Positions 23,388 to 27,034 of a stretch of DNA of 33,255 nt are shown piece by piece. Each line of letters opens with the position of its first letter. The stretch's first letter is position 1. Source of the stretch: Deltaproteobacteria bacterium tcs-42 (GTDB taxonomy: Bacteria > Desulfobacterota > Desulfuromonadia > Desulfuromonadales > Geopsychrobacteraceae); assembly GCA_002049545.1 (NCBI GenBank), contig LLYT01000023.1:1-33255 (forward strand). Direction: 5' to 3'. The translations under genes and the position numbers were made by a program. The notes beneath the pieces were generated by a model. It made no database searches and had not been told where the DNA came from. It was given only the letters and a program-made list of their open reading frames with translations.

Positions 23388-23457
23388 GTATCAATTGATC
23401 AAACCAAACTAGCGGCATCACCGGATGACAAACCTCCTCCCCGAGAAGGAGATCGAC

Positions 23458-25122
23458 ATGCTCAGTGACACTGCAATCGCTCAACAGGTTCAATCCAGAC
23501 CCATCGGCCAGATTGCCGATAAACTTGGTATTGAACAACAGTCCCTGCTCCCCTATGGCCGGGAAATGGCCAAGGTCAACATAAATTCGTTACAGCAACC
23601 AGGCAATAAGCAAGGTCGTTTGATTCTGATCTCAGCAACCACCCCCACCGCCGCCGGCGAAGGCAAAACCACCACCACAATCGGCCTGGGACAAGCCCTG
23701 GCCAAGTTGGGAAAATCGGTCTGTCTGGCACTGCGCGAACCCTCTCTCGGACCTTGTTTGGGGATGAAAGGGGGTGCCACCGGCGGTGGCTACAGTCAGC
23801 TTCTGCCAGCGGATCGGATCAACCTCCATTTTACCGGCGATTTTCACGCTATCACCTCTGCCAACAACCTCCTCTCGGCGGTGATTGACAATCACATTTA
23901 TCAAGGTAACGAATTGAACATCGATCCACGCCGGATTCTGTGGCGTCGCGTCATCGATATGAACGATCGCAGTCTCCGCCATATCGTGCTGGGACTGGGT
24001 GGAAAACTACAAGGCATTCCACGGGAAGGGGGTTTTGACATCAGTGCCGCCTCCGAAGTCATGGCGATGCTCTGCCTGGCATCCAGCCTCGATGATTTTC
24101 GCCAAAGGCTTGAAAATACGCTGATCGCCTTCACTTACAGCGGTAACCCGATTTTTGCCAAGCAACTACAAGTCACCGGTGCTATGCTCGCCCTGCTGCG
24201 CGACGCCATCCACCCCAATCTGGTACAGACTCTCGAAGGAGTTCCAACATTGGTGCACGGTGGCCCTTTTGCCAATATCGCTCACGGTTGCAACAGCCTG
24301 CTGGCGACCCGAATGGCTCAACACCATGCCGACTGGGCCATCACTGAAGCCGGTTTTGGCTTTGACCTGGGTGCCGAAAAATTCTTCGATATCAAATGTC
24401 GGCTTGGCGGTCTTGATCCACAGGTGGTCGTACTGGTGACCACGGCCAGAGCGCTCAAGTTCCATGGCGGAACAACAAAGGATAAGCAAGAGGGCAACAA
24501 TCTGACAACACTACGCTGCGGACTGGCAAATCTTGATAAACATATCGAAAACGTGCGTAAGTTCAATAAACAGCCGATCGTTGCCATCAACCGCTTTACT
24601 GACGACAACACCACGGAACTGGCGTTGATCAAAGCCCACTGTCAAAAGCTGAACATCCCCAGCGCCATTTGTGACCATTATGCCAGTGGCGGTGAAGGAG
24701 CCATTGAACTGGCCAGGCAAGTGATCGAGACAGCCCACCAGAGCCAGCCCTATCGCCCTCTCTATCGTCTCGATCTGCCGGTCGAGGAGAAAATACGGAT
24801 TATCTGCCGGGAGATATACGGCGCCGACGATGTCGCTTTTACCAAACAGGCGGCCAAAGATTTACGTCAAGTGCAGCAACTCGGCTTCGCCCAACTGCCG
24901 GTCTGCATCGCCAAAGCCCCTGGTTCCCTGTCAGATGATCCCAATTTGCTCGGCCGTCCACGCAATTTCAACATTACTGTACGTAACATACAGATCAATT
25001 CCGGGGCTGGTTTTCTGGTCGTTCTCACCGGAGATATCCTACGGATGCCGGGATTGCCAAAACATCCGGGCGCTGAACGGTGGCAGTTAGGGGAAGACGG
25101 CTTGATTCTCGGACTGGAGTAG
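23458..25122 (+). CDS. fhs: Formate-tetrahydrofolate ligase
   Basis: ATP-dependent ligation of formate to tetrahydrofolate giving 10-formyl-THF, the entry of formate into one-carbon metabolism. The 554-residue protein has the nucleotide loop TPTAAGEGKTTTTIGL (near residues 62-77), the family block REPSLGPCLGMKGGATGGGY and HFTGDFHAITSANNLL. Further motifs are VIDMNDRSLR, EAGFGFDLGAEKFFDIKCR and the C-terminal FLVVLTGDILRMPGLP. Length is normal for bacterial Fhs. The ATG at 23458 follows AAGGAG at about seven bases; a start at 23425 is less likely. The next gene begins 11 bases after the stop, so the two are probably co-transcribed. Confidence 0.97.
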   Translation: MLSDTAIAQQVQSRPIGQIADKLGIEQQSLLPYGREMAKVNINSLQQPGNKQGRLILISATTPTAAGEGKTTTTIGLGQALAKLGKSVCLALREPSLGPCLGMKGGATGGGYSQLLPADRINLHFTGDFHAITSANNLLSAVIDNHIYQGNELNIDPRRILWRRVIDMNDRSLRHIVLGLGGKLQGIPREGGFDISAASEVMAMLCLASSLDDFRQRLENTLIAFTYSGNPIFAKQLQVTGAMLALLRDAIHPNLVQTLEGVPTLVHGGPFANIAHGCNSLLATRMAQHHADWAITEAGFGFDLGAEKFFDIKCRLGGLDPQVVVLVTTARALKFHGGTTKDKQEGNNLTTLRCGLANLDKHIENVRKFNKQPIVAINRFTDDNTTELALIKAHCQKLNIPSAICDHYASGGEGAIELARQVIETAHQSQPYRPLYRLDLPVEEKIRIICREIYGADDVAFTKQAAKDLRQVQQLGFAQLPVCIAKAPGSLSDDPNLLGRPRNFNITVRNIQINSGAGFLVVLTGDILRMPGLPKHPGAERWQLGEDGLILGLE

Positions 25123-25133
25123 GAAACAATCCA

Positions 25134-25934
25134 ATGGCAAAAAAATCGACAGTGTCACAAAGCCCCGGAAAACCCGCCATGGTAGCATTATACGCCCACT
25201 ATAATTCGGACACCGCCGTTTCTCAGTACTGCGATGCCCACTACGGCCCGGACAAATTTGGAGTGGAAAACTTCCCCAGAAAGATCGCCCGGATCTCGAC
25301 CGCAGCACTGGAAGGAAAGCCGCGGCACAGCGCCCTCAACCTCGGTTGCGCCGTCGGTCGAACCTCCTTCGAACTAGCGACCCACTTCGAGCAAGTCACT
25401 GGCGTAGACTTCTCTTCACGCTTCATCGATATTGCCCGCCGCATTCAAAAGCGGGGCAGAACCTGCTACCAATGTCCTGAAGAGGGGGTTCTGAGCTCCG
25501 ATCATGAGGTTTGTCTCGCCGACCTCAACTTGGCAGAGACGGCAGACAGGGTCACCTTTCTTCAAGGAAACGTTGGCTGCCTCGAAACGCGCTTCTGCGA
25601 CTACGATCTGGTTCTGGCCGCCAACCTCATCGACCGCCTCCGCGAACCGGGAAAGTTCCTTGCCGGTATCCACCAGAGGCTGGTTGTTGGAGGCCTGCTG
25701 GTGATCGCCTCACCTTACGACTGGATGGCACAATACACCCCTCGCAAACAGTGGCTCGGTGGCTTCTTCCGCTCTGGCATCCCCTTGACGTCTCTGGAGG
25801 GGCTGGAGAAGAAACTCGCCAGACATTTTGCCAGGGTCGGTGAACCGCAGGAGGTCGAATTTGTCATCCGTGAAACAGCGCGGACCTTCCACCATAATGT
25901 TTCCCAGGTGACCCTCTGGCAGCGAACTCGCTGA
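25134..25934 (+). CDS. OvoA C-terminal-type SAM methyltransferase (putative 4-mercaptohistidine N1-methyltransferase)
   Basis: A 266-residue protein matching the methyltransferase half of the ovothiol enzyme OvoA. It opens with ALYAHYNSDTAVSQYCDAHY, then the SAM loop ALNLGCAVGRTSFELA (about residues 63-78) with GVDFSSRFIDIA. It continues with CPEEG, YDLVLAANLIDRLREPGKF and SPYDWMAQYTPRKQWLGG. It ends with FVIRETARTFHHNVSQVTLW, all close to the OvoA C-terminal domain. The DinB-like and sulfoxide synthase halves of OvoA are absent here and in the rest of the window. The ATG follows AGGA at about ten bases. The likely activity is N-methylation of a histidine thiol or similar; the true substrate is unproven. 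Confidence 0.85.
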   Translation: MAKKSTVSQSPGKPAMVALYAHYNSDTAVSQYCDAHYGPDKFGVENFPRKIARISTAALEGKPRHSALNLGCAVGRTSFELATHFEQVTGVDFSSRFIDIARRIQKRGRTCYQCPEEGVLSSDHEVCLADLNLAETADRVTFLQGNVGCLETRFCDYDLVLAANLIDRLREPGKFLAGIHQRLVVGGLLVIASPYDWMAQYTPRKQWLGGFFRSGIPLTSLEGLEKKLARHFARVGEPQEVEFVIRETARTFHHNVSQVTLWQRTR

Positions 25935-26023: not shown

Positions 26024-27034
26024 TTAATAACCAAGAAATTCGAGTAAGTGATTAATCTCTTTCATCAGTTCAGCAAAATCATTTCCCGACAAGCTCTGTG
26101 CTCCGTCGCAGAGCGCCTTGGCGGGATTGGGATGAACCTCCATCATCACCCCATGAGCCCCGGCGACCAGGGCAGATTTTGTCATTACTGGCACCAGCAT
26201 CCGCTTGCCCGTTGCATGGCTGGGATCAACAATGATCGGCAGGTGGCTCATTTCTCGAATCAACGGCACAACGGATAGATCCAGTGTATTGCGGGTCGCT
26301 TTTTCAAAGGTACGAATTCCACGCTCACAAAGGACAACGTTACGGTTCCCCTCGGCCAGAATATACTCTGCCGCAGCCAGAAATTCTTCAATCGTCGCAC
26401 TCATCCCGCGCTTGAGCAAAACTGGATGCTGAATCTTGCCAACCTCTTTGAGCAAATCGAAATTCTGCATGTTGCGGGCTCCGATCTGCAACATATCTGC
26501 ATATCTACAAACCGCATCCAACTGCTCTATCCGCATCACTTCTGTTACCACAGGCAAATCATGTGCCTTACCAGCCTGTTGGAGATATTTCAAACCTTCG
26601 ATGCCAAGACCCTGAAAGGAATGGGGCCCGGTCCGAGGTTTAAAGGCTCCACCACGCAACATTTGGCCACCGCCCGCTTTAACCTCTGCAGCAGCAGCCA
26701 GCATCTGTTCTTCAGTTTCTATCGAGCAAGGTCCGGCGATAATCACCGGTTTTTGACCATCGCCAAATTTAACCCCGGAGATATCAACAACCGTAGGTTC
26801 CGGGTGAAAGTCACGTGAAGCCATCTTGTATGGCTTGCTGACATGAATCGTCTCGCGCACGCCCGGCAAGGTACGAATGGTTGAATCATCGACATAGCCC
26901 TGATTGCCGAGCACACCAATAGCCGTTCTTAAACTTCCGGGTATCGGTTCAGCCGTCAGCCCCATCGCCTTGACTGCTGCGAGAACCTGATCCATCTGGT
27001 CCTGTGTTGCATGGTGGTGCATAACAATAAGCAT
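26024..27034 (-). CDS. aroF: 3-deoxy-7-phosphoheptulonate (DAHP) synthase, AroA-beta type
   Basis: Condenses phosphoenolpyruvate and erythrose 4-phosphate, the first step of the shikimate pathway. The 336-residue protein has an N-terminal ferredoxin-like regulatory domain (about 1-70, with [16 protein letters not shown]) and a TIM-barrel with [37 protein letters not shown] and [31 protein letters not shown] and DPSHATGKR complete the family signature. The regulatory domain resembles that of Thermotoga-type enzymes, which feel aromatic amino acids. The ATG follows GAGGAG. It is 90 bp downstream of an aminotransferase gene in the same direction. The symbol varies by organism (aroF/aroG/aroA). 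Confidence 0.95.

Follow-up and report, generated by a model that had tools for sequence, protein, structure and literature searches.

What does a methyltransferase of the ovothiol pathway act on in a genome that lacks the enzyme making its substrate? The question is raised by a stretch of 33,255 nucleotides from Deltaproteobacteria bacterium tcs-42 (hereafter the window), in which a gene resembling the methyltransferase half of OvoA stands alone. The known ovothiol route needs oxygen for the carbon-sulfur bond, and the sulfoxide synthase half of OvoA is the part that depends on it. The locus reads as follows:

23425..25122, + strand: fhs, formate--tetrahydrofolate ligase (NF010030, 820.7 bits)
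25121..25125, + strand: Shine-Dalgarno-like AGGAA, read from the sequence, overlapping the fhs stop codon
25134..25934, + strand: stand-alone TIGR04345 SAM-dependent methyltransferase of 266 aa, an orphan of OvoA C-terminal type (profile, PDB and AlphaFold2 matches)
26024..27034, - strand: convergent 3-deoxy-7-phosphoheptulonate synthase gene (NF006421/TIGR01361)

The open reading frame begins with an ATG spaced eight bases from the AGGAA. An alternative in-frame GTG at 25080 would run into fhs, and the ATG, not this GTG, fits the starts found in genus relatives. The fhs stop codon occupies 25120-25122 and is separated from the methyltransferase gene by 11 bp (25123-25133), where no terminator-like site was seen on the + strand; the two genes are probably co-transcribed in tcs-42. 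Downstream, the convergent 3-deoxy-7-phosphoheptulonate synthase gene ends the transcription unit and is a context unrelated to the methyltransferase.

From the short gap the initial annotation had suggested co-expression with one-carbon metabolism. Co-transcription holds as a likely feature of tcs-42 itself, but the linkage is conserved in only four genomes of one genus (gaps of 11, 75, 89 and 93 bp), that is, in 4 of the 9 gene-bearing genomes of that genus. Being confined to part of a genus, the fhs operon was rejected as a functional clue, and co-transcription with it tells little about what the methyltransferase does. Elsewhere the gene is flanked by what we take, from reading the sequences, to be carbonic anhydrase, a SulP transporter, a MerR-thioesterase pair, MiaB and others. 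An all-against-all comparison over 17 loci returned no conserved partner gene beyond the synteny of a few genus members.

The assignment of the protein to the OvoA methyltransferase-half type, made initially from the letters alone, was borne out by all searches. Against TIGR04345 (ovoA_Cterm, 'putative 4-mercaptohistidine N1-methyltransferase', curated cut-off 170 bits) it scores 305.8 bits (E 2.1e-91) over positions 1-242 of 242, and generic class I methyltransferase Pfam domains are matched as well. Its only sequence relatives in the PDB are the OvoA C-terminal half (8khq), OvsM (9bxh) and OvoM (9bxl). An AlphaFold2 model built with 30 homologues (pLDDT 84.7, pTM 0.83) finds the same three enzymes as best fold matches, at TM-scores of 0.85-0.87 (OvoA 8khq; OvsM 9bxh/9bxj/9bxk; OvoM 9bxl/9bxm/9bxn), and the next methyltransferases follow at about 0.5.

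The tcs-42 genome (2.55 Mb in 121 contigs, completeness 100, contamination 0.87), that of an anaerobe placed next to Desulfuromusa within the Desulfuromonadales by its named relatives, holds one TIGR04345 gene above cut-off. The synthase half had been reported missing from the window, with a full OvoA elsewhere in the genome named as what would overturn the idea. TIGR04344, the OvoA N-terminal sulfoxide synthase domain, has no match in the window or in the whole 2.55-Mb genome, and PF03781 (FGE-sulfatase) is likewise without a match anywhere in that genome. A synthase encoded elsewhere in the genome was thus rejected and, there being no protein of the FGE-sulfatase fold, tcs-42 has no OvoA, EgtB or SenA-type sulfoxide synthase.

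The anaerobic ergothioneine enzymes EanA and EanB, also proposed initially as candidates, were not found either. The ergothioneine pathway was rejected because the histidine trimethyltransferase EgtD/EanA (PF10017) has no match in the tcs-42 genome, and none of the three rhodanese genes present is EanB-like: one is an MnmH/SelU sequence (presumably MnmH), one encodes a 183-aa protein and one carries an in-frame TGA. A metallopterin ergothioneine synthase was sought as a fused metallopterin-desulfurase, that is, a frame of about 1000 aa or more, and was rejected since the Aminotran_5 (cysteine-desulfurase-type) frames of tcs-42 measure just 389-418 aa.

The third rhodanese deserves a remark of its own. 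This 142-aa protein (L197:351-779, - strand, i.e. G000:C67:33050-33478) has a single in-frame TGA, which falls on the active-site residue (YCTUPNEATS), and is probably a selenocysteine-containing rhodanese. Rhodanese matches with one TGA also occur in genomes G042, G051 and G164; no SECIS-like Rfam match was detected near the tcs-42 gene.

The absence of the synthase is not limited to tcs-42. In an order-level survey of 136 genomes, 29 carry TIGR04344 above cut-off, and TIGR04345 matches above cut-off belong mostly to fused proteins of about 700 aa that include the synthase. In the window's genus, 9 of 14 genomes have the stand-alone enzyme and TIGR04344 is absent throughout (0/14); the enzyme also occurs without synthase in G042, G044, G074, G101, G132 and G133. 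Altogether the clade without TIGR04344 covers 15 genomes from five genera and four families (f1, f8, f12 and f20). Nine of these 15 reach 90% completeness or more while contamination stays at 5% or below, and the G042 assembly consists of one contig. Weak FGE-sulfatase-like matches were seen in G042 (three, at 34-38 bits where the cut-off is 400) and, far below cut-off, in a few other clade genomes. Given 15 genomes sharing the absence, nine of high quality and one in a single contig, the loss of the synthase is a lineage trait, for which an assembly gap is a poor explanation.

Two further occurrences are worth recording. A clade member without TIGR04344 was found in G139 on a contig labelled Xanthomonadales (L066:2523-3320), where a Desulfuromonadales stand-alone protein (61% identity) is encoded; this genome is probably mis-binned or mislabelled. 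In draft genome G082, a stand-alone copy coexists with a fused OvoA (L054, L191) and, if this is not contamination, the two would be paralogues with separate roles.

A class-wide TIGR04345 search over 277 genomes added stand-alone enzymes in all eight matched genomes of genus g72 (G197-G204, a Geobacteraceae-like family), in Geomobilimonas luticola (G164, L113) and in G263, all of them without TIGR04344 above cut-off. An apparent orphan in G280 was rejected, since the contig ends within what is a fused OvoA. At four g72 loci (L181, L184, L185 and L186) the orphan gene adjoins CbiM, with CbiQ/CbiO next in line wherever the contig is long enough, and in three of the four a ferredoxin/glutamate-synthase-like pair lies on the opposite flank; a link between a thiohistidine-type compound and nickel or cobalt uptake is possible in this genus.

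Phylogenetic analysis of 97 sequences groups 17 stand-alones in one clade (SH-aLRT 100, stem 0.57), which makes a supported set (96) with Desulfuromonadales fused OvoA domains, nested in the wider fused OvoA tree. This clade has one origin inside the fused sequences, the simplest reading being that a fused OvoA lost its N-terminal half or that the C-terminal half was duplicated. A single clade for all stand-alones was rejected (AU test, p-AU 0.010), which means that orphans have more than one origin. Close relatives compared in pairs give dN/dS values of about 0.13-0.19; the gene is thus maintained under purifying selection.

To compare the orphans with their relatives we selected columns with 95% conservation or more in fused OvoA and the same residue in OvoA 8khq, OvoM and OvsM, an operational criterion and not a published definition; 61 columns qualify. 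The tcs-42 protein keeps 54 of the 61, along with the motifs NLIDR, SPY and RET..R; its seven exceptions are E24N, D69N, D146N, A147V, T196D, K251T and Q253H. Five of these positions vary recurrently in the clade. Glu24 has given way to N, H, Q, C or R in 16 of 17 members and is E in 97/97 non-clade sequences; the L066 protein is the sole clade member retaining it. Asp146 is N in 11/17 members and D in 98/98 non-clade sequences. At position 196, all 16 readable members have N or D in place of Thr; Lys251 is replaced in 12/15 and Gln253 in 9/15. No column fixed to one letter in fused OvoA was found fixed to another in the clade, the changes going instead from invariant to several letters.

All five residues are retained in both OvoM and OvsM, even though these share only 45% identity with each other, and they are equally retained by the g72 orphans; in those of Geomobilimonas and G263, a conservative Ser196 is the sole difference among them. 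The signature is nonetheless not universal outside the clade. Genus g23 encodes fused but strongly diverged OvoA-like proteins in which position 196 is Asp and the RETxRKFQH hairpin of Lys251/Gln253 is missing, which leaves only Glu24 and Asp146 as universal outside the clade. These proteins (L192-L196, family f7) combine a normal synthase half with a methyltransferase half whose branch is very long (2.09) and have K for Y at position 23; they possibly make a different product.

In class I methyltransferases the lid helices, the segment after strand beta5 and the beta6-beta7 hairpin usually form the acceptor side, and adenine is usually bound after beta3. The predicted model puts residue 24 at the N-terminal lid helices, residue 196 directly behind beta5 and residues 251 and 253 at the beta6-beta7 hairpin, positions that would place these changes at the acceptor site; residue 146 follows beta3, and D146N may touch SAM only.

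Taken together, the reading we favour, at about even confidence, is that the window's clade methylates an altered acceptor and not the 5-thiohistidine made by OvoA, since that compound is no longer supplied and replacements affect the otherwise invariant Glu24, Asp146, Thr196, Lys251 and Gln253. The enzyme would be a class I SAM-dependent N-methyltransferase, derived from the C-terminal half of a Desulfuromonadales OvoA, that persists without the oxygen-dependent synthase half. SAM would be bound at the LNLGCAVGR and GVDFS motifs and, as suggested by the family, a methyl group moved to the ring nitrogen of a histidine-like small molecule, the acceptor having most likely shifted from 5-thiohistidine to a related imidazole or another small amine. 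As a counterpoint, with 54 of 61 invariant columns kept, the pocket may still accept 5-thiohistidine. The initial annotation had left two options side by side, ovothiol by another route or a different substrate; the replaced residues tip the balance towards the second and away from the first, for the window's clade only.

The strongest competitor, which we consider rather unlikely for tcs-42, is that ovothiol A is still made, an undescribed oxygen-independent sulfur-insertion enzyme providing 5-thiohistidine and the methyltransferase completing the pathway. Such a scheme would suit the synthase-free orphans in separate lineages of the class (AU p 0.010), above all those of g72, which are genus-wide (8/8 genomes) with the ovothiol signature intact, and most invariant columns are kept by the tcs-42 protein too. 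It also has a precedent, as histidine methyltransferases without a sulfurising partner in anaerobes led to the metallopterin-dependent ergothioneine synthase of Caldithrix abyssi (PMC9516567). Opposed to it are the lack of any conserved neighbour gene, the lack in the tcs-42 genome of both a fused metallopterin-desulfurase frame and an EanB-like rhodanese, and the loss of otherwise invariant residues in the window's clade. A broader form of the proposal, that the orphan-bearing Desulfuromonadales and Geobacteraceae possess an oxygen-independent enzyme placing sulfur at histidine C5, is likewise doubtful; it would yield anaerobic ovothiol where the signature is intact and a differently methylated thiohistidine in the window's clade.

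Somewhat less probable again is salvage, in which cells would import 5-thiohistidine or a precursor from aerobic or fused-OvoA neighbours and then only methylate it. Fused OvoA is common in close relatives (TIGR04344 in 29/136 genomes), so the compound may occur in the same sediments, and the methyltransferase is under selection although the synthase half is missing; yet no uptake gene, for a transporter or otherwise, accompanies the methyltransferase gene, and the changed invariant residues are left unexplained. Both anaerobic 5-thiohistidine synthesis and salvage are better candidates for the intact-signature orphans than for the window's clade.

Methylation of some other low-molecular-weight thiol is very improbable. 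The model here would be NmbA, a class I methyltransferase that N-methylates the thiol cofactor bacillithiol in anaerobes (PMC12719100), but BshC (PF10079) is absent from 20/20 genomes, with and without the methyltransferase gene, so that bacillithiol is unavailable and was rejected as substrate; moreover, NmbA is not among the matches listed in the PDB sequence and fold searches. That the synthase half sits in an assembly gap, or that the gene is a decaying relic, is hardly credible: the 121 contigs of the genome and the truncated OvoA of G280 speak for it, but the gene has its own start, its own ribosome-binding site and an intact upstream gene, the synthase is missing from all 14 genus genomes and from single-contig G042, and dN/dS is well below 1.

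Returning to an altered acceptor as the preferred reading, the locus can be set against known systems. The Caldithrix abyssi case likewise concerns a thiohistidine-type methyltransferase in anaerobes lacking a known sulfurising enzyme; it encodes a fused metallopterin-desulfurase alongside, and tcs-42 differs in having neither such a protein nor a conserved neighbour. The C-terminal domain of OvoA (OvoC; PDB 8khq, OvoA_Th2), the probable ancestor of the tcs-42 enzyme, shares with it 48% identity over 243 residues, a TM-score of 0.87, the SAM motifs and most invariant columns; unlike OvoA, tcs-42 has no sulfoxide-synthase half in the protein or in the genome, and E24, D146, T196, K251 and Q253 are changed.

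Closest in architecture are two enzymes that stand alone too. OvoM from Sulfuricurvum, a 5-thiohistidine N-methyltransferase described as ovothiol-biosynthetic, is of similar length, 42% identical and alike in fold (9bxl/9bxm/9bxn) but, unlike the tcs-42 enzyme, retains every signature residue. The same is true of OvsM from Marinimicrobium koreense, a 5-selenohistidine N-methyltransferase with 43% identity and the same fold (9bxh/9bxj/9bxk). OvsM is accompanied by a selenohistidine synthase of the FGE-sulfatase fold; tcs-42 differs from the ovoselenol pathway in having no FGE-sulfatase-type synthase that could supply selenohistidine.

Evidently, with OvoM and OvsM already known, the stand-alone state is not new in itself. 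What is new, allowing for a possible earlier mention of such orphans, is the genome- and lineage-wide absence of the synthase, the repeated origins and a derived clade with changed invariant residues. In at least two independent cases the last step alone has been kept, which would mean either a thiohistidine obtained without the oxygen-dependent enzyme or a new methyltransferase substrate. Databases label the derived group as 4-mercaptohistidine methyltransferase by similarity alone; Glu24, Asp146, Thr196, Lys251 and Gln253 separate it from the ovothiol-type enzymes.
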